From an uncultured Fibrobacter sp. (GTDB lineage: Bacteria; Fibrobacterota; Fibrobacteria; Fibrobacterales; Fibrobacteraceae): DNA of 64,000 nt. The stretch spans positions 62,001-126,000 of the forward strand of contig NZ_CAMZCS010000002.1 in NCBI RefSeq assembly GCF_947305105.1, read 5' to 3'. The notes under the pieces were generated by a model. The model was not told the DNA's origin and did no database searches. It was given only the letters and a program-made list of their open reading frames with translations. The number at the start of each line of letters is the position of its first letter. Position 1 is the stretch's first letter. The translations under genes were made by a program, and so were the position numbers. Shown here one piece after another: positions 6,679 through 60,478 of the stretch.

Positions 6679-7194
6679 ATGAAACATTCTATAGAGATGA
6701 AAAAAGGCTTCACAATGGTTGAGCTGCTCGTGGTGGTGTCCATCATGGGTATTTTGTCTACGATGGGTGTCGCGAGCCTGCATGCGGCCATCGTGAACAA
6801 CCGTGTCCGTGACGCTGCGTTGAATGTCACCGCTTACCTGGAGCGTGTGGCCAGCGAGGCAAACCGGCTATCTAGCAAGGTTTGTGTCAAAGCCAACGGA
6901 AATACAATTTCCGCATATAAAGGCGCCTCTTGTTCTGGAACAGCCATTAGCCATCACACCCTGGAGAAAGCGCTCTCTTTTGAGAATGCGACTCATAAAG
7001 ATTGCTCCTCCAGCTGGTACAATGGAGTCACCTTCGAACCCAAGTTCGGCTTGAGTGCGGCTCCGGTACAGGGGTGTATCGTTGTTAAATACAGTGGCGG
7101 CGAAAAGAAGGCCCGTGCGCTCAAGAAAAAAGAAAAGAACAACATTATCCCGCAAGTCTCTTACGATCGCGGCAATTCTTGGACGGACCTGTAG
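6679..7194 (+). CDS. FimT/GspH-like minor pilin
   Basis: 171 residues. A type IV prepilin leader ends in KKG, followed by FTMVELLVVVSIMGILSTMG: a class III signal with the prepilin-peptidase site G|F and Glu at +5. The hydrophobic N-terminal helix continues into a short globular part with four cysteines (residues ~75-135) that probably form disulphides. FimT/GspH-type minor pilins help prime pilus or pseudopilus assembly. First gene of a four-gene operon with 4- to 5-nt gaps or overlaps. The second pilin cluster at 58702 has no equivalent gene. Confidence 0.85.
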   Translation: MKHSIEMKKGFTMVELLVVVSIMGILSTMGVASLHAAIVNNRVRDAALNVTAYLERVASEANRLSSKVCVKANGNTISAYKGASCSGTAISHHTLEKALSFENATHKDCSSSWYNGVTFEPKFGLSAAPVQGCIVVKYSGGEKKARALKKKEKNNIIPQVSYDRGNSWTDL

Positions 7195-7198
7195 CCTT

Positions 7199-7651
7199 AT
7201 GAAAGATTTACGCAGAAAAATATTTGGCAACTTGTCCGGCTTCGGTATCGTCGAAGTGCTCATCTCTGCCGCCGTACTCGGCTTTTTATATCTCGCCCTC
7301 CTGCACATGCAGGTCGGCAACCGCGAAGCGCTCCTCAGAATCCGCGGCCGCGACGGCGCCGTCGAGGTGGCGCAGAACATCATCGATTCCCTCAAGACCG
7401 TCGGTGTGGCATCCATCGCGTCGTTTAGCAAAGACAACATCGTCAAGTCCTGGGAACGCGGTCCGGGTGGTACATCCACTGTGACTTACAAGGCCGACGT
7501 GACCGTAGGCAATGCCAACGAATACAAGGCTACGACAAAGTCCAACTACGAGAACGTTGAACATGTGTACGCCAAGCAGGTGGACGTCAAGGTTTCGTGG
7601 AACTTCAAGGGGTCAGAACAATCCGTCAATGTATCTAGCGTGGTAAGATGA
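7199..7651 (+). CDS. PilV/GspI-like minor pilin
   Basis: 150 residues from ATG 7199; the open frame extends further upstream but only inside the preceding gene. The prepilin site is SG|FGIVEVLISAAVLGF with Glu at +5. The segment LLRIRGRDGAVEVAQNIIDSL is shared almost unchanged with the paralogue at 58702. The C-terminal beta region ends in VSWNFKGSEQSVNVSSVVR, again matched by the paralogue. The stop overlaps the next ATG (ATGA), so translation is probably coupled. It is expected in the minor-pilin tip complex at the inner membrane. Confidence 0.85.
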   Translation: MKDLRRKIFGNLSGFGIVEVLISAAVLGFLYLALLHMQVGNREALLRIRGRDGAVEVAQNIIDSLKTVGVASIASFSKDNIVKSWERGPGGTSTVTYKADVTVGNANEYKATTKSNYENVEHVYAKQVDVKVSWNFKGSEQSVNVSSVVR

Positions 7652-8958
7652 AAAAATCCGGCTTTACCCTAGTTGAACTCATGGTCTACATCGGGATTGT
7701 CGGTGTGGTGGTCATCGTAGCGGGGCAGGCGTTCAGCAACAGCACCAAGATGCGAGTCCGCACCGAGAGCATGATCAAGGCCAATGCAACTGTCGAAGAA
7801 GCCGGGATGCTCATACAAGAAGATGTTGCCCAGATGGGCGCGAAGAGTGCGAAGGAGTCCGGAGAGGGTTCTGCGTCGGATGTGTTTTTCAAGTCGAACA
7901 TGGTTTACATGGATGCCGAGAACGGCGATTCCTCGTCTTTCCGCATAAATGGTGATTCCCTGATTCTCCGACGTATGAACTACGATTCGCAGGGGCGTTT
8001 TCTCTCTATCGAGGAAGTCGCCTGGTTCAAACGCAACAAGCAACTTTTCCGTACATGCAAGACGATTGACCGCGATAAAAGCAGGCTCCCGTCTGCACCG
8101 GAAACGTGCCCTGAGTCAAATCCGGCATCTGTGGAAATGTTGGATGACGTGGCTTTGTTTAATGTTATCCCGGCAAGACCGGCTGTCTTGAATAGCGAAT
8201 ATGGAGGCTCTACAGGTAGCTATCCTCGCTTGCTGCCGTCTCCAGTTAATGTAGCAGATCATTCTTTTAGACTGTTTCCGAGACTTGAAGGTGAAACTTT
8301 CTTCTCGGTGAATAGAATGCCGGAGAGGGGTGGCTCTATTGTGACTCTTTCTGATTTTGTTACGAACTACGATAAAGATCGCGAGCAAGCTTTGGAAACA
8401 AAGAAGGCGGTCCAGGTTTTTGTTGTCGGTGGAACCGGAGAACTTGCTTTGTCCTCTTCTTGGAATACAGTATGCACTCCGGTTAACTTGGACGCACAAG
8501 TAGATTACGAGTTGTCTTTCAAGGTTCCGTTCTTGGATGAAAATAAGATCCGTTCTTTTTCTCCAGAAATGGATCATATGACTGTTGGCTTTCGCAATAT
8601 GGATGGTCAAATGGATCCGGAGTTGCCGGATTTCACATTCTATCCCCCTGTTGATGGTTTTGCTAATAGTAAACGAGTTATGCGTTTTTCAGTCAAGAAT
8701 GATAAGAAAAATATGTGCCTTGCTTTTACCTTTGCCTTTTATTCTCCTTTAGCATCGAAGGGGAAACTTGCTATTAGCAATTTGGAGTTGAACAAGGTGG
8801 AAAATTCGAATTTCGTATTTAACGAAGGATATAGCCCTGAAATTCCAGACAAGGCGAATGTTAAAGCATTTAAATTAAAACTTCAGGTGCAAAAAAACGG
8901 AGAAAAAGGTGACGTAAATCTTGTCGTTCCTACTCCAAGCAACGGGCCGAAGGACTAA
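7648..8958 (+). CDS. PilW-like minor pilin with extra C-terminal beta domain
   Basis: 436 residues. The prepilin site is SG|FTLVELMVYIGIVGVVVIV with Glu at +5. Residues ~20-130 (GQAFSNSTK..RVRTESMIKA..DVAQMGAKS) are nearly identical to the paralogue at 59178. A ~100-residue segment near the C-terminus (YELSFKVPF through FTFAFYSPLASKGKLAISNLELNKVE) reads like a carbohydrate-binding or jelly-roll beta-sandwich and is also conserved in the paralogue. Ordinary PilW proteins lack such a domain. Base composition changes within the gene near 8100-8220: the 5' part is GC-richer and the 3' part AT-rich. Confidence 0.82.
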   Translation: MKKSGFTLVELMVYIGIVGVVVIVAGQAFSNSTKMRVRTESMIKANATVEEAGMLIQEDVAQMGAKSAKESGEGSASDVFFKSNMVYMDAENGDSSSFRINGDSLILRRMNYDSQGRFLSIEEVAWFKRNKQLFRTCKTIDRDKSRLPSAPETCPESNPASVEMLDDVALFNVIPARPAVLNSEYGGSTGSYPRLLPSPVNVADHSFRLFPRLEGETFFSVNRMPERGGSIVTLSDFVTNYDKDREQALETKKAVQVFVVGGTGELALSSSWNTVCTPVNLDAQVDYELSFKVPFLDENKIRSFSPEMDHMTVGFRNMDGQMDPELPDFTFYPPVDGFANSKRVMRFSVKNDKKNMCLAFTFAFYSPLASKGKLAISNLELNKVENSNFVFNEGYSPEIPDKANVKAFKLKLQVQKNGEKGDVNLVVPTPSNGPKD

Positions 8959-8963
8959 TTATT

Positions 8964-11900
8964 ATGAGAAAGATGAAAAAAGGTGTATCTCTTGTAACCG
9001 TGCTGCTGTTCATGATGGTGGCTACCATTGCAGCTACTGCTACGTATAAGTGGCTTAGTTCCATTGGAACTTCTTCGGCTGCGCGTCTGCAGATGAGTGA
9101 AGCTCGCCAAGCAGCAATATCGGGTATCGAAGCTGCTCGTTCGTGGATGACCTTTAAAGGCAATGACCTAGGTGCTGTTATTAGACAGTATTTTCAAGAA
9201 GGGAAAAAACCAATTTTGCTGAATTCTGTGTTGCCGAAAATGAAGGCGGGCAGGATGAATGACAGCGTTTGGCTTATGGGTGTGAATATTGAAAATTCTT
9301 CAAAATATAAATTGAAAATTGTATCGCTGGGAACGACAAGGGATAATGTGAAATATAGCGAAGTGGCTATATTCAATGTGAGTGGTTTATATCAAGCAGA
9401 AATTCCGACAGACGATCACATAGTGAATTTCAAGGATGCGTTCCATGGAGGCTTAACGACAGCTAACGTCATTGATGTATCATCGGCAATAATCAAGCAG
9501 ACTACCGCAGTAAAAAATGCAGGTGGTCAAGCTTTGACTTCCATTAAAGCAGATGAATACTTGGTCTTAGATGGCGATTTTTATGTAAATGATGGTGGAA
9601 ATGTCAATGATTTGTATGTGAGTGGCGATTTGTCTTTTTTGAAAAATTTGACCGTAGGAGGGAACTTGTATGTTGGGGGGAAATTATACGGAACTTCGAC
9701 TAGTAGCAGAATGAATGTTCTTGGCTCAACATACTTGAATGGAGGAATGAAAATCAACAATATGTCTCAGTATGTGAAAAATTCTGGGGCGTCTTATGCA
9801 GGTGGTGTAGGAGGACAGTTTAATTTTAATGGTAATGTCACGTCAAATGGTGATATCGACCATCTTAGCGGAGAAACAAGTGTCAGCTACATCAAAATGT
9901 CTAATAACCTTGTGCTGAATGGAAAACTTGTGTTCCCGTCAAATGCGTCAAAAAAAGATTCTTTGATTGTGTTACAAAACGCTTTTATTAGTGGTAATTC
10001 TACTAATTCGGGGAGCGTTGATTTTGATAACATGTATAAAACCCGTTTTGGCTCTGGCAGTGGCGATAAATTGTATTTCAATGGTTTTCAAACTTATACA
10101 GACAATAATGTGTGCGAAAACGGCTTTTATAAATGTGCTCAGTCTCAATCCGGTAATATTTATATTGCGCGCAGGAGTGAGCTGATTCCTATGCCTTCGC
10201 CGGAGGAAATCCGCGATTGGAATGCGGATAGTCTTGTTGCTTACCGCGATATGATATCGGGTGAAAAAAATCAATGCGGTTTTTCACAGGACAGAATTCA
10301 GTTTAATACTGCGATATTGGGATCTTCATTTGTTCATTCTGAAGATTCAAAACTTGGGTGTAGTGATGATATTTGGAAAAATGATATTGAAATTCCTGTT
10401 GAAGCACTTAATGCGTGTTATAACATAGCAAGTGGTGATGATCAACTTTTTGATAAAACCTGGTTAATCGTCAACTGGAATCATGCTCCTCAATGGAGTC
10501 CCCAAAAGAATATTGCTGCTGTAAAAAAACTATCAGGAAACTTTATTTTTGTCATCAATGAATCTTCGGCTCCTTTGGCTGAACTGGAACTGCCTGAAAC
10601 GGAAGCTGATGCTATGGTTATGCTTTATTTGCCCGATGGCTGGAAAAATACAAATCCTGGTTTTGCCTTGCGAACGAACTTAAATAAGAGTATCGCAGAT
10701 TACCATTATTTTATATATAGTGCAGGTGATATTGGACGCTTTATTACGAGGCCGTTGTCGCGTATAAAAGGCGGAATCTATATGGAAGGCTGTTCTATGT
10801 TGAATACGCTGGGCGGAAAGGATACTTTGGCGGTTGATTTTTATGAGCCGCTATTTAAAAGGTTGGTGAAATCTTCAGTGCTGTGTGAATATGATGGTAC
10901 TAAAACTTGTTCAAATTTCTCGGGGGCGGTGTCTGGATTTGGACCTGATATGTTCCAAACGATGGATCCATATCATGTTGCTACATCGCCGCAATTGATT
11001 GTAGAAATTGAATCACAGTATAAAAATAATGAACCTTTGCCGAAAACGGCGCAGGAAGTGAAACCTTCTGAAGTGGTTCTTCCTCGTGTAATCTATTTGC
11101 CAAGAGATGCTTATGGATATCTTTCGGATTATTATAACGTGTTAGCTTTGAATGGTTCAACTCAAACGAAGATTGCTTCGAATATGCATTGCCCAGAAGG
11201 TAAAATTCCAACAGCGGATTCTAAACTCTCAAGCGGAGGTGGACTACCTGAGGGAAAGTTCCTTTGTAGTTATGGTGATGGTGCTGATACGATACCGGTT
11301 TATTTAGTTGTGGAAGGATCCTTAAGTGAAAACTCTGGGGTGCATTTTGCTTCTGCAGATGAGAAAAAGGACATTGTATCGGGACATAGTGTTGATATTC
11401 ACTTAAGTGCGACAAAGAGTGATGCTACAATAGAGTTGGACATTTCAGTTCCTGAGAATCCACCAAGTGGGTGGACCATTGAAGGTGTTCATTCTGGTTT
11501 AAGCGTTAAAAGTACAGAAAATGGTAAGAAAATTTGGACTTTAAGAACTACGCCGACAGGAGATGATTTGACATTGTTCAAAGTCCGTACTACGGAACAT
11601 GCGGAATTGGGCTCGGTTATAATGAATCTTAAATCTTGTGTAAATGCAAGTTGTGTTATACTTCAACCGTCGCAATCATATGTGTATATGTCGAACCGTG
11701 TTGTGGTGGAAAGAGAAGATGTCAGATGTGACAACATAAATACAGGTGCTTTTAAGCATGCGTATGGTTTTGAATGCAGTGAATTGGCTAGTATGCCCGC
11801 ATGTGACCATTATAAAGATGATAACGGAAAAGACAGTAAAGTTTGGGTTACGGCAAGAGGTCAGGGGTGTTTTGCTCTTGAACCACCGAATGAACGCTGG

Positions 11901-14900
11901 GATTGTTATACTGGGAGTAATCAAGTTTATTTAGATAGTGTTTTAGTAGATGATGATTATTGTACTGCATATATACCGCCAAAGACGGTAGAATTATCTT
12001 CGTATGAATCTGTTTACAAATTGCCTGCGGTGCTCAAACGCAAGAGAAGTCCATTAAAGATAAAAATTGTTAATCCAAATAGTCAAAGGGCAGTGAATAT
12101 AAAAGTTCATCGAGCTGGTAACGATGAGGTTTCGCATAAGTGTGATGATGAGTGCTCTTATGGATTGTATGCTGATGACACTGTATATATATCAAAAGAG
12201 GGTCCGAGGTTCTCTTATTGGACATGTTATGGTACGTCTTGTAATGATAGTGACCCGAATAAGACTTATAGTGAATCTGAAATGAAATTGCTGCTAAAGG
12301 GTGGAATGGATTCTGTCACTGCGTGGTTTGATCAGAAGGATGGTCATTGTTTCTATACGAATTTTCAAGATTTCAAGAGTGACGATTGGTGTAGCCTATC
12401 CGATATTGAAGCAAGAAAACAATGCCTTGATAGCTGCAAAAATGGAGCAAAGCACTGCTCTGCAGGACAAACTCCGTATGAAGGATCTGTTGAAGGTTCG
12501 GATTGGTTGATTGTTTATTCGAACGACAACCGAAACAATGGCAATGGCTTCGCCCTTCCTCAGATTGACAATAGAGAAGGAAATTTGATGCATCCAAAGG
12601 ATTTTGGTAGGAAAGTTATTCTTAAGCAAACTATAGGAAAACCGACTGTTATTTTGAACAACGCTTTAGCTGGTTCAAATGGCATGATGACGGCTATGTT
12701 GAAAATTCCATCTGCTACTTCACAAATTATTAGTAGTGTAGAAAAATTTTTGACCGACAATCCCCTAAAAAAATTTATAAAGATGATTCCTTTGGTTGGA
12801 AATGCTTTTGAAATAATTGACGATTTCGTAACAGCAATGCTAAAGAATAGTCTACTAATTCATGAAGGTCTTATTATTCGATCTAATGCCGATGCTTCGG
12901 AGTATTTTACTTTGAATATTGTGGCAAAGGAGCCGATTGTTTTTGCTAGGCTATGTTATGTCCAGGGACAAGATAATGATATAGATCATTGCCATGACAT
13001 TCGATTTGAGACTGGATTTAATGACGATTGGCCTACAACGGCGTCCCGTTTGAGCCGGTTGACCTTGAATGTTGATGTTGACGGAAGTGTTATAAAGGCT
13101 ATTTTGAGTAGGAACTGGTTGCAAGGTTCTTTTGAAGCCGGTATGGCCTCGGTGGAATTTGATTTGAATGATCCTGTGTTGAAACAGAAATTTAATGGTA
13201 ATACCTTGAATGATGATCTTCATCAATATGTTGGGTTGAAGATTGGATATCCATATATTATTAGAATAGATATAGAACCTTTCTTCCTCCTCCCTAAGGG
13301 CTATCAAGAAACAATTGCGACTTTCCCTGCCCTTGAGTTCTTTGATGTTGGTTGGCGCAGTTATGATTATGATGCGAATTGCTGGGATACCCCGAAGGTT
13401 AGTTGTTCGTTTAAGCCGAACTATGCAGGGGGAATGGTGCCGGATTCAATCGATGTGACCCCATGGGTTGGGATGTCTTCGTGGTTCGATAACCAAAATT
13501 GTGATGTTACTTACTATTACAATGGTTGCGATTTGCGTCAAGATAAGTTCGCGCAACATTTCCAGATTTTAACGGATCATGTATATACGGGTAATGAGGT
13601 CGCTTGTAAACTTCGTCGCCCGCGTGGTTCTGGCCTGTACAATTTCTCAGGCCGAAAATTAAGTACGTTTGGATTGGGTCGTTTGGCATCAGATAAATAT
13701 TGGTTTGAAGATGAAGGTTATCATGGATATCCAATAGAAACTGCTAGAGCAAGTGGATTTGTTAATGAAGCTTCTGTTGTTGTGACCTGTAGAAGGGATG
13801 AGGAGACCGATAATACGCATATTTATGATGCAAGTTGTGGTGACTTTATTGTGGGTGAATATGAACAATGCTCGGAATCGTTCACTAAGATGTTATCTTA
13901 TCCGGTGAACTGTAATATGGGCGATTTGGAGTGCCCTGTTACTCTGGACACTGTTTACAATGTTCGCGAAGCTAATCTCATAATTACGTTGGATGAAGAG
14001 ACAACGTCAAATGTTGAGCCTTATCTTGTAGATCTTGATAGTAATGTGAGTGCGCTGAATGTTAAAAAGTTAAATGCAACGGAATATCTTATTGATGTTG
14101 AGTCTGCTTCAGGTGCTCCGGGCTTTAATCCGCAAAATGTCGCTCAGATTAAATTCAAAAATGTTTCATCCTATTTTAGAGTGACAAATGTGAGGAGCGA
14201 TTGTCGTTATGCATTTAATGTGGAATGTAATGCTCCATCGTACAATTCCATAACCGGGATGTGGACTGTTTCGGCCGTTGTAACTCATCCGGAAAAGGCT
14301 GAGTCTTGTGAAGTTATTCCTTTAGATGATGCTTCTGGAGCCGATATTCCTGATCCGCAATCTTGTGGCATTGATTTTATGCAGATGTTCAAGCAAGAAG
14401 GTGTATATGGTCAGAACATTGTTCGAAATTACGCATTTAAGGTGGTTGCTAGGGATGATGATGGTGAAGTGATGGATTCTTGTGTGACTCCTGTGAAAAC
14501 GGTGGATCCTTTGGAGATTCATTGCTCTACCACGCCCGATACAGTGGAATCCGGAATGGGAGTTTCTCCGTTAACATTTAGGGTGGAAAATTGTCCGCCG
14601 GAAGGTTGTGACTATACTATTGAATATCCTCCTGAGTTTAATCTTGAGACAAAATCGGGAAAATATATGGGCGGAGAAATCGTTCACTGTCCAGATGAAA
14701 ATTGTATGAAATTTAATACATCTAACAACAAGCTTCCGTCAACGCCGAATCCGTATGTATATGATCTTAAAGTGATGGGTCGTTTCACATGCCCGTATGA
14801 TTCAAATGAATTCTATGTGGCCCCGGAACCTGAAAAGGGAACATGTAATGACCATAAGATTGAGGATGGTTACTTCGTTGCCCACATAGGCTTTGCTCAG

Positions 14901-16529
14901 GATGGCTATTGGGGGGGAACCATCGCCGGAAGCGCAAGAATTGTGTATACCGATATGATAGGAAACGTTATTGGTATTGAAAGTCAGCATATAGGCACAA
15001 ATGCGTTGCACAAAGATTCTACAGAATTATTTAACGAATATATCAAGGGCAAAGATGTTGAATTGAGGTACAAGTTGCCTGAAAATATGCTTAAGTGCAA
15101 TAAGGGTGTCTGTACGTACTTGGTGACGCTATTGCTACATGGTGGGGATTTCTGCTCCGAAAAGTGGAATGTTCGTAACTTGAAAGGCCTCAACTCCAAT
15201 TGTCCATCTATAGAGAACCAGAATCCCAATAGCGGAATTACTTTCAGACCTGTTATGAGTGGTTGTGAAGATACATTGTGTGTTTGGTCTGTTTGGAGGA
15301 ATGATGAAGAACTTAAACATGGCTCTAAGTACAATGGCATGGATGCTTTGACTTTTGACAATCTTGGATTGGGATCGGCAGGAACGAAAACATACCGCTT
15401 CAAGGTCTCTGCGGAAGACGAATATACCTCTGCTTTGGATAGCTGTGATTTTAGCGTAACTTACACGAATGATGCGCTTAGTGTCACAAATTGTGGTTTT
15501 GTTGGTTCTGCAGACTGGGGTGGATACGCTCAATATTCGTTTGCAACGAATTGTGCCAATTGTGAGTATGAACTTCGATCAAGTTCGCGTGTAATCTCTG
15601 GAAAAACCAGTGTGAATGAATATGATAATACTTCAGTTTCTGTTTCTCCTATTACAAAGATGGAACAGTTTGAATTGACTGTTAATCATCAAAAGATTAA
15701 TGGATGCACCGCGACGCCCTCTTTGAATGCGGTAATTCCGAGTTGTAAAATCGAAGATAAAACGGAACTTTATAGTGATGAATCCGCTCGTTTTACAGCA
15801 ACCTTTAATACTTGTGAAGATGGTAGCTGTGAGTGGCCTTGGGTGCTCAAGAAAAATGGTGGTGAAATCTACTCTGGTACGGTTAAATCCAATGAGATGA
15901 TTGAAAAGGTGGTTACTGGTGGCGGTACGTATGCCTTGTATCTCAATGGCAGTAATGAAGCCGCCTGTACGATATATGTGACGAATGTTGATCGTCCTTC
16001 CAGTGCTGTAGGCAGTTGTTCGTTTGATAAACCAGATGGATATGCATATGGGGCCACTGGTATAAAATTTATTGTGAATGGTCTTACTGCCAATATTGAA
16101 CCTTGGCACATTAAAAAAGTTCCGACTGAAGCTATTGTCAGAAATGGAACTTTTGAACAATATATTATGGATGAGCGAAAAGAATTTGATATGCCTACAG
16201 ATTTTGCGGCCGACAATAAGAGAATTGGTGCATATAAATTTGAATTGCCTAATAGCGATGTGCCTCCTTGTACCTCTGAACTTAAAGTGAAAACGCCAAG
16301 GGTGAGCCGCTGTGAGAGGTCTTGTAGTGGCAAATTCTTTGGAATTTGTACGGGATACAAACTCGACATAACGGTGGAGAATTGTGCGAATTGCTCATAT
16401 TATGTGGTAGAGGGAAATAAACGTGGGTCTATATCGACTTCTGCGACAGTTACTGATCTAAGAAAGAATGACTATACTGTACGTCTTAATGATGATAATT
16501 CTACTGATAAAAAATGTTCCAATAAATAG
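8964..16529 (+). CDS. Giant PilX/GspK-like modular pilin, probable pilus-tip adhesin
   Basis: 2521 residues. The N-terminus MRKMKKG|VSLVTVLLFMMVATIA is prepilin-like but has Thr, not Glu, at +5, as in the GspK/PilX class that sits at a pilus tip. Residues ~30-150 resemble the PilX pseudopilin region (ARQAAISGIEAARSWM). Next comes a Gly/Asn-rich stretch (~185-330; for example LTVGGNLYVGGKLYG) that looks like a beta-solenoid. It is followed by a long body with many Cys pairs, including Ig-like units in the last ~900 residues (motifs such as ENCPPEGCDYTI, NCANCEYEL and ENCANCSYYV). The N-terminal ~1150 residues are colinear with the protein at 60479. The gene is AT-rich, last in the operon, and followed by two terminators. 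No PilY1 gene is present, so this protein may fill that role. Adhesin function is inferred. Confidence 0.8.
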   Translation: MRKMKKGVSLVTVLLFMMVATIAATATYKWLSSIGTSSAARLQMSEARQAAISGIEAARSWMTFKGNDLGAVIRQYFQEGKKPILLNSVLPKMKAGRMNDSVWLMGVNIENSSKYKLKIVSLGTTRDNVKYSEVAIFNVSGLYQAEIPTDDHIVNFKDAFHGGLTTANVIDVSSAIIKQTTAVKNAGGQALTSIKADEYLVLDGDFYVNDGGNVNDLYVSGDLSFLKNLTVGGNLYVGGKLYGTSTSSRMNVLGSTYLNGGMKINNMSQYVKNSGASYAGGVGGQFNFNGNVTSNGDIDHLSGETSVSYIKMSNNLVLNGKLVFPSNASKKDSLIVLQNAFISGNSTNSGSVDFDNMYKTRFGSGSGDKLYFNGFQTYTDNNVCENGFYKCAQSQSGNIYIARRSELIPMPSPEEIRDWNADSLVAYRDMISGEKNQCGFSQDRIQFNTAILGSSFVHSEDSKLGCSDDIWKNDIEIPVEALNACYNIASGDDQLFDKTWLIVNWNHAPQWSPQKNIAAVKKLSGNFIFVINESSAPLAELELPETEADAMVMLYLPDGWKNTNPGFALRTNLNKSIADYHYFIYSAGDIGRFITRPLSRIKGGIYMEGCSMLNTLGGKDTLAVDFYEPLFKRLVKSSVLCEYDGTKTCSNFSGAVSGFGPDMFQTMDPYHVATSPQLIVEIESQYKNNEPLPKTAQEVKPSEVVLPRVIYLPRDAYGYLSDYYNVLALNGSTQTKIASNMHCPEGKIPTADSKLSSGGGLPEGKFLCSYGDGADTIPVYLVVEGSLSENSGVHFASADEKKDIVSGHSVDIHLSATKSDATIELDISVPENPPSGWTIEGVHSGLSVKSTENGKKIWTLRTTPTGDDLTLFKVRTTEHAELGSVIMNLKSCVNASCVILQPSQSYVYMSNRVVVEREDVRCDNINTGAFKHAYGFECSELASMPACDHYKDDNGKDSKVWVTARGQGCFALEPPNERWDCYTGSNQVYLDSVLVDDDYCTAYIPPKTVELSSYESVYKLPAVLKRKRSPLKIKIVNPNSQRAVNIKVHRAGNDEVSHKCDDECSYGLYADDTVYISKEGPRFSYWTCYGTSCNDSDPNKTYSESEMKLLLKGGMDSVTAWFDQKDGHCFYTNFQDFKSDDWCSLSDIEARKQCLDSCKNGAKHCSAGQTPYEGSVEGSDWLIVYSNDNRNNGNGFALPQIDNREGNLMHPKDFGRKVILKQTIGKPTVILNNALAGSNGMMTAMLKIPSATSQIISSVEKFLTDNPLKKFIKMIPLVGNAFEIIDDFVTAMLKNSLLIHEGLIIRSNADASEYFTLNIVAKEPIVFARLCYVQGQDNDIDHCHDIRFETGFNDDWPTTASRLSRLTLNVDVDGSVIKAILSRNWLQGSFEAGMASVEFDLNDPVLKQKFNGNTLNDDLHQYVGLKIGYPYIIRIDIEPFFLLPKGYQETIATFPALEFFDVGWRSYDYDANCWDTPKVSCSFKPNYAGGMVPDSIDVTPWVGMSSWFDNQNCDVTYYYNGCDLRQDKFAQHFQILTDHVYTGNEVACKLRRPRGSGLYNFSGRKLSTFGLGRLASDKYWFEDEGYHGYPIETARASGFVNEASVVVTCRRDEETDNTHIYDASCGDFIVGEYEQCSESFTKMLSYPVNCNMGDLECPVTLDTVYNVREANLIITLDEETTSNVEPYLVDLDSNVSALNVKKLNATEYLIDVESASGAPGFNPQNVAQIKFKNVSSYFRVTNVRSDCRYAFNVECNAPSYNSITGMWTVSAVVTHPEKAESCEVIPLDDASGADIPDPQSCGIDFMQMFKQEGVYGQNIVRNYAFKVVARDDDGEVMDSCVTPVKTVDPLEIHCSTTPDTVESGMGVSPLTFRVENCPPEGCDYTIEYPPEFNLETKSGKYMGGEIVHCPDENCMKFNTSNNKLPSTPNPYVYDLKVMGRFTCPYDSNEFYVAPEPEKGTCNDHKIEDGYFVAHIGFAQDGYWGGTIAGSARIVYTDMIGNVIGIESQHIGTNALHKDSTELFNEYIKGKDVELRYKLPENMLKCNKGVCTYLVTLLLHGGDFCSEKWNVRNLKGLNSNCPSIENQNPNSGITFRPVMSGCEDTLCVWSVWRNDEELKHGSKYNGMDALTFDNLGLGSAGTKTYRFKVSAEDEYTSALDSCDFSVTYTNDALSVTNCGFVGSADWGGYAQYSFATNCANCEYELRSSSRVISGKTSVNEYDNTSVSVSPITKMEQFELTVNHQKINGCTATPSLNAVIPSCKIEDKTELYSDESARFTATFNTCEDGSCEWPWVLKKNGGEIYSGTVKSNEMIEKVVTGGGTYALYLNGSNEAACTIYVTNVDRPSSAVGSCSFDKPDGYAYGATGIKFIVNGLTANIEPWHIKKVPTEAIVRNGTFEQYIMDERKEFDMPTDFAADNKRIGAYKFELPNSDVPPCTSELKVKTPRVSRCERSCSGKFFGICTGYKLDITVENCANCSYYVVEGNKRGSISTSATVTDLRKNDYTVRLNDDNSTDKKCSNK

Positions 16530-16733: not shown

Positions 16734-17702
16734 ATGAATAAGACTCGCAAGGTTTCTCGCAACAGGCCTATTCCCGAGGCGTTTAGAGGGAAGGTTTATC
16801 TAGATCCGACATACGACCCGGCATTCAAAGAACTTTTCGACAGCGAGGATGCGTTGAGGGATTTTCTCGATGGTGTGCTTGGCCTTGAGGGAGACGACAA
16901 AATCAAGACGCTACGGTTCAGTTTCGATAAGGCCGTTCTTTTCCGTGTCCCGCAGCGGTCGAAGGTCGTCTTCGATATCTTTGCGACCACGGGTAGTGGG
17001 CGTTTTCTCAATGTAGAGATGCAGCGATTGGAAAACGACTTCTTCGTAGACCGCACCATACTTTACAAGGCGTTCCTCGTTATCAAGGGTCGCAAGGAGA
17101 TGGAAATCTCGCCAGAGTTCAAGGCACTGACTCCGGAGCAACAGAGGTATCGCCGCTACTTGCTACCGGAAACAATTTCCATCTGGATCTGCGATTTTGA
17201 CTTGCCCGACGCCAAGGGCGAGTACCGCGACGAATGGGCGCTCTACAGCAGGCATGCCGTTAGGGAGGGCAAGACTGTACCTCTTTCGGGAAAAAATAGG
17301 TATATTTTCTTGAGCGTCCCCAACTTCACCAAGTCCGCCGACGAGGTGGATTGTGCCGCTGATGTGTGGCTCTATCTGCTGAATCACGCGAGGGATGGCG
17401 GCGAACTTCCCGATTTCGGCAGCGGGATTGTCGAGGATGCGTTGGAACGCATCCGTGTGGAGAACGCCGATGATGAACTTTTACAGGCTCAGGAGCTGAA
17501 CATGACAACGAAGGAAGATTATGAGAGCTGGATGGCCGGGAAAGTGATCAAGGCAAGAGCCGAAGGCGAGATTGTTGGCGAATCCCGTGGCAAAGCGGAG
17601 GCTGAGAAGAAGGCCTCCGACCGCACAGCTAAACGGATAGATTACCTCCGTTCTATGGGCGTTTCCGAAGAGATCATTGCCGGGGCGGCAGCAATTAAAT
17701 AG
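16734..17702 (+). CDS. Rpn family PD-(D/E)XK nuclease (PD-(D/E)XK nuclease family transposase type)
   Basis: 322 residues. The N-terminus (YLDPTYDPAFKELF) and the core FDIFATTGSGRFLNVEMQ (about residues 78-97; Asp, Glu and the adjacent Gln as the PD-(D/E)XK-type site) match the recombination-promoting nuclease / PD-(D/E)XK transposase family, whose members cut DNA and have been linked to phage defence. A Lys/Glu-rich linker leads to the C-terminal tail YLRSMGVSEEIIAGAA. An in-frame internal ATG at 17502 has AGGAG six nt before it, so the last 66 residues could be made separately. No terminal inverted repeats are seen, so this is not a standard IS. Confidence 0.85.
   Translation: MNKTRKVSRNRPIPEAFRGKVYLDPTYDPAFKELFDSEDALRDFLDGVLGLEGDDKIKTLRFSFDKAVLFRVPQRSKVVFDIFATTGSGRFLNVEMQRLENDFFVDRTILYKAFLVIKGRKEMEISPEFKALTPEQQRYRRYLLPETISIWICDFDLPDAKGEYRDEWALYSRHAVREGKTVPLSGKNRYIFLSVPNFTKSADEVDCAADVWLYLLNHARDGGELPDFGSGIVEDALERIRVENADDELLQAQELNMTTKEDYESWMAGKVIKARAEGEIVGESRGKAEAEKKASDRTAKRIDYLRSMGVSEEIIAGAAAIK
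17502..17702 (+). CDS. Possible internally initiated small C-terminal Rpn product
   Basis: In-frame with the 16734 gene. AGGAG (17491-17495), six nt, then ATG (17502) would give a 66-residue protein with the Lys/Glu/Arg-rich linker and the LRSxGxSEExIA tail. In characterised Rpn genes a small protein made from inside the gene blocks the full-length toxin. Here this is inferred from the position of the ribosome-binding site only. Confidence 0.4.
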   Translation: MTTKEDYESWMAGKVIKARAEGEIVGESRGKAEAEKKASDRTAKRIDYLRSMGVSEEIIAGAAAIK

Positions 17703-18201: not shown

Positions 18202-18447
18202 TTATGCCTGTTCGCGGCGCTTCTTCTGAAGTGTGTCGATTTCTGCCTGGACTTCTGCAATTAATTCTTCTGAAAGTCCTTTGCTGCGCAGCGCAGCTAC
18301 CGTATCGGCTTTCGCTTTCGCTTGCTCATCGGAGCGTGCGTTGGCAATTAGCTTCTGCGCTTTCGCTTGCGCTTCCGCGAGTTCCTTGCGGAATTCATCT
18401 CCGGCACTCACGAAACCGTATTTTTGTCCGATGCTTACGAATGCCAT
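18202..18447 (-). CDS. Possible internally initiated small protein from YhgA-like gene
   Basis: AAGGAG (18454-18459), a 6-nt spacer and an in-frame ATG (18445-18447) predict an 81-residue protein, MAFVSIGQKYGF to the C-terminus. It is mostly Ala/Lys/Glu helix and would be a candidate antitoxin to the full-length nuclease. This is inference from the ribosome-binding site. Confidence 0.4.
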   Translation of the reverse strand: MAFVSIGQKYGFVSAGDEFRKELAEAQAKAQKLIANARSDEQAKAKADTVAALRSKGLSEELIAEVQAEIDTLQKKRREQA

Positions 18448-19185
18448 GTCGAGCTCCTTCAGCACGTCCTTGGTGACGTACTCCTTCAAATATATACTAA
18501 TCTTCGCCAGCAGGCAAGTCGCCTTGTCGTACGGCATCCGCTGCAGCGGCTTCCTGAACAGTGGCAGAACTTGGAGCAGTTTCTCCTTGTCGTAGGCGTA
18601 CTTCATCGCTATAATGCCCATTCCTGTGGCAGTGTCCTCGCAGGCGAGGCAGTCGCTGTCGGGAATGTCGATCATGTTCACGAACGAGCAGGCGAACGGG
18701 AGAATCCTCCCGCGGAAACATGAGGGGTACCTGTCCTCGATGCTCCCGAGCGGGTCCCAGTTCTCGCGCCCGTTGTAGAAGATGATGGCCATCGTGGGGA
18801 GCCCGCTGAAAGCCCTGTGCTCGCTGTATATCTTCATCACGGAATTCACGTATCGCGCAATCTGGTCAAGCGTGCCGGAATCGCGCCCGGACTTGTGCTC
18901 TGCGAGAATGCCCACGAGCAGGGGCGCTCCCGAGGCGACTTCTACGCGGAAGGCGAGGTCGGCTTCCCCCGTCTCCGCGACTTCGGAATACGAGTCGGGG
19001 ATGCGTACGAGCGTGTCAAGATTCACTTCTGAGATGAACTCGCCTATGTCCCTGTTCACCTTGCCGGAAAGTTCCAGCAGGTGCCGGAGCCGCCCGACGT
19101 CGGCGAAAAGCCAGCGGAAAAAGGCGTCGTGTGGTTTTGGCTCGGATGTTTCGTCTACTTTTGTCATAGGGTCGATATTTTCCAT
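18202..19185 (-). CDS. YhgA-like (Rpn family) PD-(D/E)XK nuclease
   Basis: 327 residues from the ATG at 19185, which has GGAG seven nt upstream; the frame is open to 19314 but that extension lacks support. PHDAFFRWLFADVGRLRHLLEL at the N-terminus and GEADLAFRV..LVGILAEHKSGRD (Asp ... Glu-x-Lys, the PD-(D/E)XK site) match the Transposase_31/YhgA family of recombination-promoting nucleases. The middle part (FSGLPTMAIIFYNGRENW) is also typical. The C-terminal tail ALRSKGLSEELIAEV resembles that of the unrelated-looking neighbour at 16734. An internal ATG with a good ribosome-binding site lies at 18447, and the 3' end is duplicated next door. Confidence 0.87.
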   Translation of the reverse strand: MENIDPMTKVDETSEPKPHDAFFRWLFADVGRLRHLLELSGKVNRDIGEFISEVNLDTLVRIPDSYSEVAETGEADLAFRVEVASGAPLLVGILAEHKSGRDSGTLDQIARYVNSVMKIYSEHRAFSGLPTMAIIFYNGRENWDPLGSIEDRYPSCFRGRILPFACSFVNMIDIPDSDCLACEDTATGMGIIAMKYAYDKEKLLQVLPLFRKPLQRMPYDKATCLLAKISIYLKEYVTKDVLKELDMAFVSIGQKYGFVSAGDEFRKELAEAQAKAQKLIANARSDEQAKAKADTVAALRSKGLSEELIAEVQAEIDTLQKKRREQA

Positions 19186-19402
19186 TAGGGGTCTCCATAT
19201 AGAATGTTCTTCCCCTATAGACGTTTTTAGCGGAGTTTTTGTCCTAAAAAAATGAAAAAAAATGGAGGAGGCGGACTGTGTGTTTTTCGGAGTCGAATTC
19301 TCCCTACAATACATGTTGTATTATAATGAAAAAGAATTTTTTAGAATTTCTAAAAATCTTTAAATTTTACTTAAAAATTGAATTATTGTATAATAAAATC
19401 TA

Positions 19403-24133: not shown

Positions 24134-24190
24134 TTTTTATGGCAGCTTTTGAGAATTTGTATATATTTTGAACGAAAAAGGGTGACTAAA

Positions 24191-25588
24191 ATGAAAAAAG
24201 TAATTTCTTTAAGTTTTCTGTTGTTGAATGTGATAACTTTGTTGTGCGCTTGTGATGGGAAGAACAATTCTTCACGTGCGGTCGCTATTGACGAAGATGA
24301 AGAAGCCAAAGCCCAAAGACAGATGGAAGTTTGCGCCAATCGGTATGGCAATAGATTGGATGATGCCCAGTGGAAGGAATCATTTAGTGAATTGAGTCTC
24401 ATGAAAGATGAATTGTTTACTAAAGCCAGTTCTGTGGCGTATGATTACTCGAACTACATGGAAGGTCGTGAAATTTCGTACGATGAAGAATCTGGACGCT
24501 TTCGTGTTTTGGTGATGGATGTCGATAAAGAAAAGAAAGACTCCCTTGAGGCTTATATTGATGGATGCTCGTTCTGGTTTAAAGGTTTTGATTCGTTTAA
24601 AAGTGATACCTTTGAAATCAGTCCTTGCCTTTGCAAAGAAGAAGATGGAAAAACTCTTTATTTGAACAAGAAGAGCGATTCTGATTCAGAAGAATCAAGT
24701 TCGTCGGAGTCCCTCAATTCTGACTCGTCTTCTGCCCGCGGCTCCAGTTCGTCTTCTGTCCGCGGCTCCAGTTCGTCTTCTGTCCGCGGCTCCAGCTCGT
24801 CGTCTGTCCGCGGCTCCAGTTCATCTTCTGCTCGCAGTTCGAGTTCTTCTTTTGACCGCAGTTCCAGTTCTTCTGTATCTCGCAGATCAAGTTCGTCTAT
24901 GGAAGAAATTGTTTCTGAATATTCTTCGGAACGCGAGTCCAGTTCATCAAAAGTTGTTGTAGTATGCCCGGAGAGACCGGCTGATGTATTGCCTGACTCA
25001 AGGGAATATACTGTCGCTTACGAATTCAACGATCCTAACAATATAGGGAAGGATTTCTTTGGCCTGAATGAAGCCCATGCTGGTGAAGGGAATCCTAGAG
25101 GTGATTGCGACAACATTGTTTTGGATGGTCACTCTGGCTTGATAATTCCTTTGAGCGAGACGTTCACGACGAACGCATTTTTCATTGAAACCCGGATTTA
25201 TCCAGAAGCATTTGATGATATGCAGAATATAATTGTGTCGGAACCTCCTGGAAGCGGCTATAGTGGGTGGCAATTGCGCTTGGATAATGGAAAATTAAGA
25301 TTCCATCTTCGTGATTTTGGAAAGGATAATAGCCATTGGACCATATTTGATGCCGGAACGGTTCCCCTAAATGAATGGACGACTATTTTGGTCGTAAGAT
25401 CCTTGTCAGGAACGGTGGAAATCTGGGTTAACGATGAGATTGCTTTCACAGGAGAATATTCTGGAAATGCTGTTAATGTCACTTATGATCTTGGAATCGG
25501 TTACGATGCTGTGGTTCAAGGCGGACATGACGATCGATTCTTTATAGGAAAAATAGATTATCTCCGTTTTGGAAAAGTTTCAGAATAA
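24191..25588 (+). CDS. Lipoprotein with Ser-rich repeat linker and LamG-like domain
   Basis: 465 residues from ATG 24191; earlier in-frame starts would break the signal peptide. Lipobox LLCAC puts the lipid Cys near residue 19-21. A variable region (about 25-150) is followed by a Ser/Arg linker built from RGSSSSSV-type units (~175-255). A C-terminal concanavalin/LamG-like jelly roll (~280-465, including FFIETRIYPEAFDDMQNIIV, GWQLRLDNGKLRFHLRD and DYLRFG) ends the protein. The LamG part is about 70% identical to the next gene's product. Such domains often bind glycans. TATATT lies at 24162-24167, 23 nt before the start. Confidence 0.85.
   Translation: MKKVISLSFLLLNVITLLCACDGKNNSSRAVAIDEDEEAKAQRQMEVCANRYGNRLDDAQWKESFSELSLMKDELFTKASSVAYDYSNYMEGREISYDEESGRFRVLVMDVDKEKKDSLEAYIDGCSFWFKGFDSFKSDTFEISPCLCKEEDGKTLYLNKKSDSDSEESSSSESLNSDSSSARGSSSSSVRGSSSSSVRGSSSSSVRGSSSSSARSSSSSFDRSSSSSVSRRSSSSMEEIVSEYSSERESSSSKVVVVCPERPADVLPDSREYTVAYEFNDPNNIGKDFFGLNEAHAGEGNPRGDCDNIVLDGHSGLIIPLSETFTTNAFFIETRIYPEAFDDMQNIIVSEPPGSGYSGWQLRLDNGKLRFHLRDFGKDNSHWTIFDAGTVPLNEWTTILVVRSLSGTVEIWVNDEIAFTGEYSGNAVNVTYDLGIGYDAVVQGGHDDRFFIGKIDYLRFGKVSE
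24728..24848 (+). repeat. 24-bp coding minisatellite (RGSSSSSV units)
   Basis: Four near-identical 24-bp units (CGCGGCTCCAGTTCGTCTTC core) plus degenerate flanks, all in frame, encoding the Ser-rich linker. Such arrays can change length by slippage. Confidence 0.85.
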
Positions 25589-25603: not shown

Positions 25604-26350
25604 ATGAAAGGATTGGGTCTTTGGAGTTCCCTGTTATTGGGGTCGATGACTTTATTGTGTGCTTGCGGCGCAAGAGATCATTCTGCACAAGTGATTGTGA
25701 TTGGAAATGACCCGGACACGGAAATTAAGACTCCGGAAGAATTTAGGGATATAGACTCTAGCTCTCGCACCTATGCGGTCGCTTATGAATTCAACGATCC
25801 TCAAAACTTGGGGAAAGACTACGTTGGGTTGAACAATGCCAAAATTGGTGAAGGAACCCCTGAGGGCGATGGAGAAAATCTTCTCTTGGATGGGCGTTCT
25901 GGCTTGAAAATCCCGTTGAGTGGAACATTCAAGACAAATGCGTTCTTCATTGAGACTCGAATTTATCCAGAAGCATTTGATGATATGCAGAATATAATTG
26001 TGTCGGAGCCCCCAGGAAGTTTCTATAGTGGGTGGCAATTGCGTTTGGATGATGGTGAATTAAGATTCCATCTTCGTGATTATGGAAAGGATAATAGCCA
26101 TTGGACCATATTTGATGCCGGAACGGTTCCCCTTAGAACATGGAGCTACATCTTTGTTGAAAGATCCTCTTCGGGCAGGGTCATAATTTGGGTTGACGAA
26201 AAGATTGCATTCTCGGGGTACTATCCTGGCAATGTTATTAATGAAGATTATGACCTCGGAATCGGTTATGATGCAATGCAACAAAGCGAACATACCAATC
26301 GATTCTTTGTAGGAAAAATAGATTATCTCCGTTTTGGCCGAGCTGACTAA
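25604..26350 (+). CDS. LamG-like lipoprotein, paralogue of preceding gene
   Basis: 248 residues. Lipobox LLCAC, then a short spacer and directly the LamG-like domain (AVAYEFNDPQNLGKDYVGLN to DYLRFGRAD). It lacks the N-terminal variable region and the Ser linker of its neighbour. Long identical nucleotide stretches with the upstream copy (for example around 25965-26010 versus 25195-25240) point to tandem duplication followed by change or partial gene conversion. The gap is 15 nt with an AAGGGT-type ribosome-binding site, so it is co-transcribed. Confidence 0.85.
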   Translation: MKGLGLWSSLLLGSMTLLCACGARDHSAQVIVIGNDPDTEIKTPEEFRDIDSSSRTYAVAYEFNDPQNLGKDYVGLNNAKIGEGTPEGDGENLLLDGRSGLKIPLSGTFKTNAFFIETRIYPEAFDDMQNIIVSEPPGSFYSGWQLRLDDGELRFHLRDYGKDNSHWTIFDAGTVPLRTWSYIFVERSSSGRVIIWVDEKIAFSGYYPGNVINEDYDLGIGYDAMQQSEHTNRFFVGKIDYLRFGRAD

Positions 26351-28375: not shown

Positions 28376-29836
28376 ATGAAATATTCTAAAATCATGCTTG
28401 GTACAGCATTGGTCTGTGCCACTGCTACTTCAATTTTTGCCCAGGAAACGCTCCGCAGTCTGGCCGAAGAAAGGGGCCGTTACATTGGGGCCATCCTGAA
28501 CAGCGAATGGTTCAATAACGCTATCGAATCTCAGTTCGAGGAAATCCACAAGGCACAGTTCAATGCGGTTGTTGCTGAAAACGAAATGAAGTTTGACGCG
28601 ACGGAGCCCAACAAAGGCCAGTTCAGCTACGCCAAGGGCGATAAGATGGTTGAATATGCGAAGGCGAACAAGATGCGTGTCCGCGGCCATGCCCTCGCTT
28701 GGCACAGCCAGGTTCCCGGCTGGGTGAACAATATTCGCGACAAGAAACAGCTCCTTGACGTTCTTAAGAACCATATCGACAATGTGGTTGGGCACTGGAA
28801 GGGTGAAATCGCCGAATGGGACGTGGTGAACGAGGCTGTCAACGATGATGACCATACTTGGCGTTCCAATGGCTCTGTCTGGTTCCAGACGATTGGTGCC
28901 GAATTCCTCGACTCCGCTTTCGTGTGGGCTCATGCTGCCGACCCGGATGCCGAACTTTGTTATAACGACTACGCCATCGAATGGGGTGTGGGTGCGGGCA
29001 GCAAGGGCGGTTTTGTCGTGGACCAAGTGAAACGCTGGAAGGCTAGCGGCATTCCTATTACTTGTGTGGGCACACAGACCCACATCGAAATTTCCCACGA
29101 AACGACACCCCAGAACGTTCGCGCTCTTGCCAAGGCTCTTGCCGAGCATGATGTCGTCTTGAATATCACCGAACTGGATATCGGTTTCCCGAAGAACTCT
29201 GCAAACAATCTGGGGGCTTCCGATTATGCCAAGCAGGGCCATCTCTATCGCCAATTCATGGACGTGTTCCTCGAAGAACCGAACATGGGTGAATTCATGA
29301 TTTGGGGTGTGACCGATGCCCACAGTTGGCTTGACGCTTCCCAGGGCAAGACGCAGGGCCTCATTTACGACAAGCAATACAAGGCGAAGCCGGCCTACGA
29401 CAGCCTCATCGCAAGCCTCAAGGCTCACCCTGCTTCGGAAGTGAAAACTCCGTATAAGTCTGCTGCAACGCAGGATACCACGGCCCAGGATACGACGACT
29501 CGGGATACTACGGTGCGGGATACGACTGTTAAAGACACGACAACTCAGGATACGGTTGCCACTCCGGGCCCTGTTGTGAGCGATACGGGCAATGTCAGCA
29601 TCCGTCGTGGCACTGCGACATTGACGGATGTTCGCATGAACCTCGTTGGTCGTACGCTGTCCATTGTGGGTGCTTCGAATGCGAAGGTCCAGGTCTTCGA
29701 TATGCGTGGCCGCCCGGTCTATAGTGCCGTTACGAGCAAGGGCTCTGTCGATCTTTCCGCGATTTCTGACGGCCTGTATGTCGTCCGCGTCAAGGTCGGT
29801 TCGAAGACCCTGGAACGCCGCGTGGCACTTCGATAA
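28376..29836 (+). CDS. Secreted GH10 endo-beta-1,4-xylanase (copy 1)
   Basis: 486 residues. Signal peptide to SIFA|QE (about 22). A GH10 TIM barrel covers about 25-355, with acid/base Glu153 in WDVVNEAVND and nucleophile Glu266 in ITELDIG; HALAWHSQVPGW is also diagnostic. A linker of xDTT repeats (~365-400) leads to a ~75-residue C-terminal beta domain (VQVFDMRGRPVYS..GLYVVRVKVGSKTLERRVALR) like type IX secretion sorting domains. No carbohydrate-binding module is seen. GTTGGAAAG lies before the ATG. About 70% identical to the next gene over the catalytic domain. Confidence 0.95.
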   Translation: MKYSKIMLGTALVCATATSIFAQETLRSLAEERGRYIGAILNSEWFNNAIESQFEEIHKAQFNAVVAENEMKFDATEPNKGQFSYAKGDKMVEYAKANKMRVRGHALAWHSQVPGWVNNIRDKKQLLDVLKNHIDNVVGHWKGEIAEWDVVNEAVNDDDHTWRSNGSVWFQTIGAEFLDSAFVWAHAADPDAELCYNDYAIEWGVGAGSKGGFVVDQVKRWKASGIPITCVGTQTHIEISHETTPQNVRALAKALAEHDVVLNITELDIGFPKNSANNLGASDYAKQGHLYRQFMDVFLEEPNMGEFMIWGVTDAHSWLDASQGKTQGLIYDKQYKAKPAYDSLIASLKAHPASEVKTPYKSAATQDTTAQDTTTRDTTVRDTTVKDTTTQDTVATPGPVVSDTGNVSIRRGTATLTDVRMNLVGRTLSIVGASNAKVQVFDMRGRPVYSAVTSKGSVDLSAISDGLYVVRVKVGSKTLERRVALR

Positions 29837-29955: not shown

Positions 29956-29980
29956 CAACGTTAAATAAAATTTAGCGTTG
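29956..29980 (+). promoter_or_regulatory. Operator-like inverted repeat upstream of GH10 gene 2
   Basis: Arms CAACGTTAAAT and ATTTAGCGTTG (one mismatch/G.U) around AAA, 75 nt before the ATG. Could be a regulator site or a weak hairpin. No convincing -35/-10 pair could be assigned. Confidence 0.4.
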
Positions 29981-30055
29981 ATATTGTCTCAACAGGAATT
30001 ATTTTTAGTAAAAATGGTTTGGGTTGTAGAGTTATCCACAATGAGGTTAAGGAAA

Positions 30056-58701: not shown

Positions 58702-59181
58702 ATGTTGCTAGGTAAGGCTCTTAAAAGAAGGAAGGGCTTCGGCATCGTAGAGGTGCTGGTTTCCGCTGCTGTCCTTGGATTTTTATATCTCGCCCTGATG
58801 AACCTGCAGTTAGGGAATCGGCAGACGTTGCTCCGCATTCGTGGGCGTGATGCTGCAGTTGAGGTGGCACAGCAGGTGCTCGATTCGTTGCAGGCAAATG
58901 GCGTGAATGCTTTACCGGCTGCAGATGATGGAAATCCTGTCATAGTAGATGGCTTGGATTATGAACGCACCTGGGAGCGGGGTACCGGAATTCTAGGAGA
59001 TAAGTCCCGTATAGTCTACAAAACAAAAATCAAGGTAATGCCTGATTCTGCCTATGTTGTAAAAAACAAAACGGGTTTGGACTCTATATCGCATGTATAT
59101 GCAAAGAATGTTGTCGTGACTGTCAGTTGGCCTTTTAAGGGGTCCACTCAGTCTATAGATATTTCGGGGGTGATTCGATGA
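58702..59181 (+). CDS. PilV/GspI-like minor pilin (operon 2)
   Basis: 159 residues. Prepilin site KG|FGIVEVLVSAAVLGFLYLAL with Glu at +5. LLRIRGRDAAVEVAQQVLDSL and the terminal VSWPFKGSTQSIDISGVIR match the operon 1 protein at 7199. First gene of the cluster: no FimT/GspH-like gene precedes it. GAGGTTGAG lies before the ATG. The stop overlaps the next ATG (ATGA). Confidence 0.85.
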   Translation: MLLGKALKRRKGFGIVEVLVSAAVLGFLYLALMNLQLGNRQTLLRIRGRDAAVEVAQQVLDSLQANGVNALPAADDGNPVIVDGLDYERTWERGTGILGDKSRIVYKTKIKVMPDSAYVVKNKTGLDSISHVYAKNVVVTVSWPFKGSTQSIDISGVIR

Positions 59182-60470: not shown

Positions 60471-60478
60471 GAGGCTTT

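Follow-up and report, generated by a model that had tools for sequence, protein, structure and literature searches.

Fibrobacter is a main rumen cellulose degrader without cellulosomes, and its mode of attachment to fibre is still argued. For the grip on fibre, published work points to fibro-slime proteins and to pilins left unspecified (PMC3079729, PMC4668043). The window analyzed here, the whole 64,000-nucleotide stretch from an uncultured Fibrobacter sp., contains an open reading frame at 8964-16529 (+), a single stop-free frame with an ATG start, which begins as a prepilin and runs to 2521 aa. This raises the question of which place in a pilus such a giant could occupy, and what its extension would bind. 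The genes concerned are:

6679-7194 (+): FimT/GspH-like minor prepilin (H position), Glu5 kept (GFTMVE); N_methyl over cut-off; GspH E 3.8e-8
7199-7651 (+): PilV/GspI-like minor prepilin (I position), Glu5 kept (GFGIVE); TIGR02523 PilV E 0.0016, below its cut-off
7648-8958 (+): PilW/GspJ-like minor prepilin (J position), 436 aa, Glu5 kept (GFTLVE); N_methyl over cut-off
8964-16529 (+): giant K-type prepilin, putatively at the tip, 2521 aa; N-terminal match to GspK
8964-8984 (+): class III leader MRKMKKG with predicted cleavage between Gly and Val and Thr at +5, from the sequence

The leader of the giant reads MRKMKKG/VSLVTVLLF, with a mature N-terminus V-S-L-V-T and hence Thr at +5; a preliminary description of this DNA had claimed both this Gly-Val site and the Thr (Ala in the paralogue), and the sequence confirmed them. 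Immediately 5' of the giant, the FimT-, PilV- and PilW-like genes form a tight run, each with GFxxxE, so that the Glu5 previously claimed for these partners is present in all three; the PilW-like gene overlaps pilV, and the giant starts 5 bp beyond the PilW-like gene. The giant is fourth in an H-I-J-K gene set and, since Glu5-bearing FimT-, PilV- and PilW-like genes lie directly upstream, takes the position of K (GspK/PilX) in a tip cassette. GspK and PilX are described as lacking Glu5 (PMC7541494), and in the T4F tip complex the capping subunit is likewise described as being without it (PMC10191384).

The same features were found among relatives. In all 57 giants compared, the immediate upstream ORF was 370 aa or longer; it had Glu at +5 in 55, the two with an unreadable +5 representing one contig edge and one wrong frame. 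Across 93 distinct giants (57 from the genome set and 36 from named contigs, up to four of them truncated or contig-edge copies), collected with a pattern that left +5 free, this residue was Thr in 65, Ala in 22, Val in 5, Met in 1 and Glu in none. The GspK profile matched eight of nine giant N-termini (E up to 1; best 1.2e-8) and PilX_N six of the nine (E up to 1; best 1e-5), the GspK match being confined to the N-terminus of the giant. The giant itself scored below the NCBIfam GspK equivalog cut-off (12.9 bits, or 18.2 for the N-terminus alone, vs 130) and the Pfam PilX_N cut-off (13.0 vs 25.5 bits), and a Pfam search of the whole protein gave no match at E up to 1, T4P_PilY1 (PF05567) included.

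The giant is therefore K-type by anatomy and is not GspK or PilX itself. It shares with these the class III leader, the lack of Glu5, the N-terminal profile match and the last place in the H-I-J-K set, whereas the giants reach 2,000-3,200 aa compared to 307 positions in the GspK model, and a solenoid and extension replace the alpha-domain of GspK. The K-type reading put forward earlier was thus supported by the absence of Glu5 in 93 of 93 giants, the GspK and PilX_N matches, the cassette order and the ComZ-like architecture considered below, making a K-type tip pilin, with a putative position at the tip, very probable on anatomical grounds.

Two further copies of the giant are present in this 3.57-Mb genome, which holds three in all. 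The second lies partly within the window:

58702-59181 (+): PilV-like gene of cluster 2
59178-60470 (+): PilW-like gene of cluster 2
60479-64000 (+): second giant K-type prepilin, Ala at +5, leaving the window (full length L004:2479-8985, 2169 aa)

The third, beyond the window (L004:10626-16664, 2013 aa), has Thr at +5 and its own PilW-like gene. No FimT-like gene was found directly upstream of paralogues 2 and 3. The G+C content falls to 0.40-0.43 across both giant genes (8001-16000 and 60001-64000 of the window), compared to 0.46-0.59 over most of the window, and directly past the first giant lie putative Rpn/PD-(D/E)XK transposase-like nuclease genes, judged by eye (16734-17702 and 18202-19314, - strand).

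Type IV pilus genes were reported in all Fibrobacteres genomes examined in PMC4704652. In the genome studied here, two PilT-family ATPases exceeded the cut-off, as did PilQ, found with PilN at one locus adjoining ORFs that by eye resemble PilM and PilO. Prepilin motifs gave eleven matches at E up to 1 on three contigs; those outside the giant clusters were two on contig C8 and two on contig C1, the latter pair near a secretin-like ORF. T2SS-like loci also occur elsewhere in the genome, namely a PF03934 match beside GspE/GspL-like ORFs (by eye) and a second secretin match near the two prepilins on C1, so that the cassette could serve a pseudopilus. In F. succinogenes grown on cellulose, three of four pilin genes were reported as upregulated, by less than 2-fold, and T2SS genes were upregulated as well (PMC4668043).

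It is therefore worth considering whether the giant might instead cap the pseudopilus of a type II secretion system, with a long tail that guides secreted enzymes for plant degradation or keeps them at the outer membrane. Such a role would agree with GspK being the nearest named N-terminal family, with the T2SS-like components elsewhere in the genome and with the response of T2SS genes to cellulose, yet the partners resemble FimT, PilV and PilW, and PilT, PilQ and PilN are all present. Moreover, an extension of 2,000-3,000 residues seems excessive for a structure confined to the periplasm, and we consider this explanation unlikely compared to a type IV pilus tip subunit.

What the putative tip subunit would display was addressed with two AlphaFold models, from which, together with profile and fold comparisons, the following modules were delimited:

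8985-9401 (+): pilin module, a long helix (10-64) and four beta strands (99-146) in the AlphaFold secondary structure
9426-10892 (+): predicted beta-solenoid with long loops, residues 155-643; 4wa0 Z 14.8, 6n2b Z 13.4, 6qvi_C Z 10.4
10893-11027 (+): end of the ancestral K module, residues ~644-688, strand LIVEIESQY; from profile alignment and C-termini by eye
11328-11699 (+): predicted Calx-beta/cohesin-like beta sandwich, residues 789-912; 3fq4_A Z 10.2, rmsd 2.9 over 104
11694-12341 (+): Cys-rich stretch with predicted Ig-like domains, residues 911-1126; 3gld_C Z 9.9, rmsd 5.8 over 176
12342-13361 (+): predicted lectin-like jelly roll, residues ~1127-1466, starting with HCF; 1kit Z 10.3, rmsd 3.8 over 170
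13872-14510 (+): predicted second jelly roll and Ig-like domain, residues ~1637-1849; matches to the N-terminal jelly roll plus Ig of GH2 enzymes at a Z of about 8
14205-16526 (+): C-terminal array, residues 1748-2521, made up of diverged Ig/FN3-like units that bear Cys; length varies between relatives; modelled to 2270

Model 1 covered residues 1-1126 (52 sequences, mean pLDDT 84.9, with low scores at the membrane-helix end, where residues 1-9 and 29-36 are mostly below 50) and has the pilin helix, followed by the four-strand sheet. The beta-solenoid claimed in the preliminary description appears as short strands at regular spacing from about 189 to 378, and residues 155-643 of the model align with solved beta-helix domains. 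Folds were ranked by VIA-align, which re-examined the 1000 best chains of Foldseek; by Foldseek alone, Ig-rich surface proteins ranked top for both models. The best matches to residues 155-643 were the C-terminal domains of tapirins, 4wa0 (rmsd 4.2, 297 aligned, 13% identity) and 6n2b (rmsd 4.8, 304 aligned), followed by ComZ (6qvi_C), in which 354 residues aligned across 35-689 with an rmsd of 20.7, probably reflecting domain orientation. An ice-binding beta-helix reached Z 7.7. As Z below about 13 in VIA-align can reflect a common arrangement in repeats, the tapirin match stands clear, and the ComZ match draws mainly on the matching two-domain layout.

Sequence profiles against the PDB did not recover tapirin (up to E 10) or ComZ, giving only weak matches of beta-helix or Ig type, to an antifreeze protein (E 0.0054), an LRR protein (0.0054), FimG (0.0068) and ovalbumin (0.15). 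Pfam searches with 30 solenoid segments likewise gave only weak matches (Bactofilin in 5, FapA in 3, best 0.0045). The likeness to tapirin is one of predicted, common fold and is no proof of descent. Beta-helices are folds that are widely shared.

Eight K subunits from five outer Fibrobacterota genomes, trimmed to 520-618 aa, aligned to residues 8-649 of the giant with 99.3% probability (E 4.8e-20); a match in genome G044 (L181) was excluded from this alignment since its prepilin start was not recognized. In several outer genomes, FimT-, PilV- and PilW-like neighbors could be read beside the short K subunit. The C-termini of the short relatives (e.g., SASLVSQSM) correspond by eye to about 680-688 of the giant (LIVEIESQY), indicating that the ancestral K module ends near 688. 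The solenoid, as predicted, would belong to this ancestral module of ~688 residues and most resembles the cellulose-binding tapirin domain. With K-module relatives in other Fibrobacterota, it need not be specific for cellulose. On one outer Fibrobacterota contig (L183, G082:C132), three short K-type subunits of 545-618 aa after trimming lie close together.

Among known systems, ComZ of Thermus is similar in several respects: it is a type IV pilus minor pilin in which a pilin module bears a beta-solenoid, its gene comes fourth in a Thermus oshimai plasmid record, behind FimT-, PilV- and PilW-like genes, and the T. oshimai homologue also lacks Glu5. The FimT-PilV-PilW-K order occurs in Thermus and Deinococcus plasmids alike. 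ComZ binds DNA and has been argued to sit at the tip (PMC6561018). The identical four-gene order, the third-ranked fold match and this binding activity would fit a ComZ-like DNA-uptake receptor with extra domains. However, ComZ-like proteins have 631-695 aa, with DNA as ligand and no lectin or Ig extension, and ComZ has no need of a 1,800-residue lectin and Ig tail; furthermore, hhalign of the giant with ComZ-like proteins (just two sequences used) aligned the helix alone at a probability of 5%. A DNA receptor thus seems quite improbable. The motif PRFVYL in the C-termini of the plasmid ComZ-like K subunits of Thermus and Deinococcus (L197 13672-15567 and L198 10861-12948) resembles PRVIYL at 707-712 of the giant, and may be a chance similarity.

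Beyond the K module, residues 911-1126 are predicted to resemble the Ig domains of streptococcal pilins, and a weak InlB B-repeat-like match was found in the paralogue. Model 2 (residues 1127-2270, 51 sequences, mean pLDDT 82.8) opens with the jelly roll, whose fold match 1kit is a lectin-bearing sialidase; in the HCF motif at its start, H, C and F were invariant in 51 rows. Farther on, residues 1955-2257 matched three-domain fibronectin (FN3) fragments with Z up to 9.8 (242 aligned). Alignments A4 and A5 comprised 50 of 71 loci, those with a recognizable HCF anchor and no open 3' end. Anchors were located for the K end in 48, HCF in 71 and PWVG in 47 of the 93 giants, the remainder being taken as pattern misses or truncations. 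Spacing was 430-474 residues from the K end to HCF, 250-397 from HCF to PWVG and 361-1634 after PWVG; the near-constant first interval, set against the last, indicates a fixed core and a variable C-terminal array.

The array was earlier described as Ig-like domains with paired cysteines, a view that held in part. Nine units were proposed within 1641-2521, each cut at its terminal Cys, and profile-profile comparison placed 6 of 36 unit pairs above 40% probability (U4-U6 82.9, U5-U6 78.5, U5-U8 67.9, U1-U4 65.9, U4-U7 48.5, U2-U5 41.9), compared to none of 54 control-unit and none of 15 control-control pairs, all below 5. By this comparison U0 and U3 had no good relation to any other unit. Repeats in the last ~900 residues are accordingly borne out by profile similarity, alongside predicted FN3-like folds. 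The cysteine spacing fared otherwise: C-x2-5-C occurs 8 times in 1641-2521 against a shuffle mean of 5.3, and 137 of 1000 shuffles reached 8, so that the count is not beyond chance for a Cys-rich stretch and was set aside as evidence of repeats. Cysteines are absent from the first 383 residues, and the last 881 contain 37. Also discarded were cysteine parity, even in just 28 of 57, and a repeat HMM built from the very units it later recovered, its alignment being out of phase for two of them. Of the 'stalk or adhesin' proposed previously, the Ig-like array is retained as a prediction, but it would not simply be a stalk under a head, since it forms the distal, most length-variable end, past the jelly roll.

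The first 362 residues of the giant matched 36 of 37 genomes of the same genus, one of two of the same order and none of 21 more distant ones (60 relatives searched). With a nine-sequence N-terminal profile, matches were obtained in 111 of 167 Fibrobacterota genomes, which by hand count divide into 76 (of 80) from Fibrobacter, 20 from the remaining genera of the family, 1 from the order and 14 from outside it; the four Fibrobacter genomes without a match were 69-81% complete, and 36 further match-less genomes were assumed to lie outside the genus. Most named contigs with close relatives carried a Fibrobacter label. A Fibrobacter giant was also seen on two contigs labelled Bacteroidales (L104, L139), which are probably binning errors. 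Lengths reached 3209 aa in Fibrobacter and 344-2274 aa in one other genus of the family (some at contig edges), with 1504 aa in the same-order relative, and nine matches outside the order, among those listed, had open frames of 542-670 aa. Because these last end where the K module ends, about 1,830 residues appear to have been gained in the Fibrobacter lineage.

The leader, the missing Glu5, the gene order, the module boundaries, the predicted folds and the distribution were obtained by computation, and a course of events may be proposed from them. The leader would be removed by prepilin peptidase, with cleavage after Gly7. A protein of the surface or periplasm, held by an uncleaved N-terminal helix outside any filament, might explain why the N_methyl model misses the first giant and scores the second at 14.7 bits (cut-off 21.2), but the conserved leader, the first 60 residues as the most conserved stretch of the giants and the invariable PilW-like neighbor make it very improbable. 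Once processed, the K-type subunit would use its Glu5-less helix to cap a FimT-PilV-PilW-K complex for priming the type IV pilus, which would place the subunit at the outermost tip. Its ancestral module of ~688 residues would combine the pilin domain with a tapirin/ComZ-like beta-solenoid, to which the Fibrobacter lineage would have added about 1,250-2,500 residues of beta-sandwiches, the lectin-like jelly roll, the second jelly roll and the variable Cys-bearing Ig/FN3-like array. Most likely the giant would bind plant cell-wall polysaccharide, and PilT-driven retraction may pull the cell onto the fibre.

Overall, a giant modular K-type tip pilin by which retractable pili would hold on to plant polysaccharide, with both tip and ligand putative, is the reading that seems probable, and on balance the giant is taken as a putative adhesin for such polysaccharide. 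That the predicted solenoid grips cellulose as tapirins do is a tentative suggestion, and it is similarly doubtful, though conceivable, that retractable type IV pili grip cellulose through a putative capping K subunit with a tapirin-type solenoid, a lectin and a variable Ig array. Caldicellulosiruptor, the source of tapirins, is a Gram-positive thermophile, and the 2015 tapirin paper reportedly placed tapirin genes beside a type IV pilus operon. Should the cellulose grip be real, tapirins and these tip pilins would represent one kind of pilus-associated cellulose adhesin in unrelated, non-cellulosomal cellulose degraders. Tapirins are described as binding microcrystalline cellulose with micromolar affinity and as having an unusual beta-helix shape (PMC7142884). 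The C-terminal beta-helix fold is what the giant has in common with them, whereas the tapirin chains compared are C-terminal domains that are not joined to a pilin module.

Modular pilins such as PilB and PilC of S. sanguinis offer another parallel, an adhesive module grafted on a pilin, PilC carrying a concanavalin-like lectin (PMC8179133). The census of modular pilins used the IPR012902 motif, and its most extreme case has 860 residues with 12 copies of one motif (PMC8179133); compared to these, the giants score under the corresponding N_methyl cut-off, and their length is about threefold greater. Counts based on this motif can miss capping subunits, since those lack the Glu5 on which it rests, and the family may include pilins of very large size, reaching about 3,200 residues. 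With PilC/PilY1 the likeness is in proposed role only, that of a large and variable adhesin located above the K subunit at the tip of the pilus; PilY1 is a non-pilin with a beta-propeller, and the giant has no PilY1 domain. If the proposed role is true, the giant K subunit would do the job that PilY1 does elsewhere. Searches for PilY1 (PF05567) gave 0 of 1 and 0 of 167 genomes, an uninformative outcome since no control genome matched either. A partial literature search, covering few subscription papers, turned up no description of a giant tip pilin from Fibrobacter. New here are the predicted tapirin-like fold of residues 155-643 and the lectin-like jelly roll that follows it. Specific genes with tip-capping anatomy can now be named in almost every Fibrobacter genome examined, and the predicted fold common to the giant and a known cellulose adhesin makes the question of fibre grip testable.

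Between clusters 1 and 2, the window encodes a Pfam-confirmed GH10, a second closely similar ORF, a GH5 and a GH9; these neighbors were counted in favor of the polysaccharide-binding tip pilin. The two GH10 xylanase-like genes lie in tandem (28376-29836 and 29978-31588), the first with a sub-threshold T9SS-type sorting tail (E 3.9e-5). Two adjoining lipoprotein-like ORFs (24149-25588 and 25604-26350) have near-identical C-terminal sequence, and the first of them matches Laminin_G_3.
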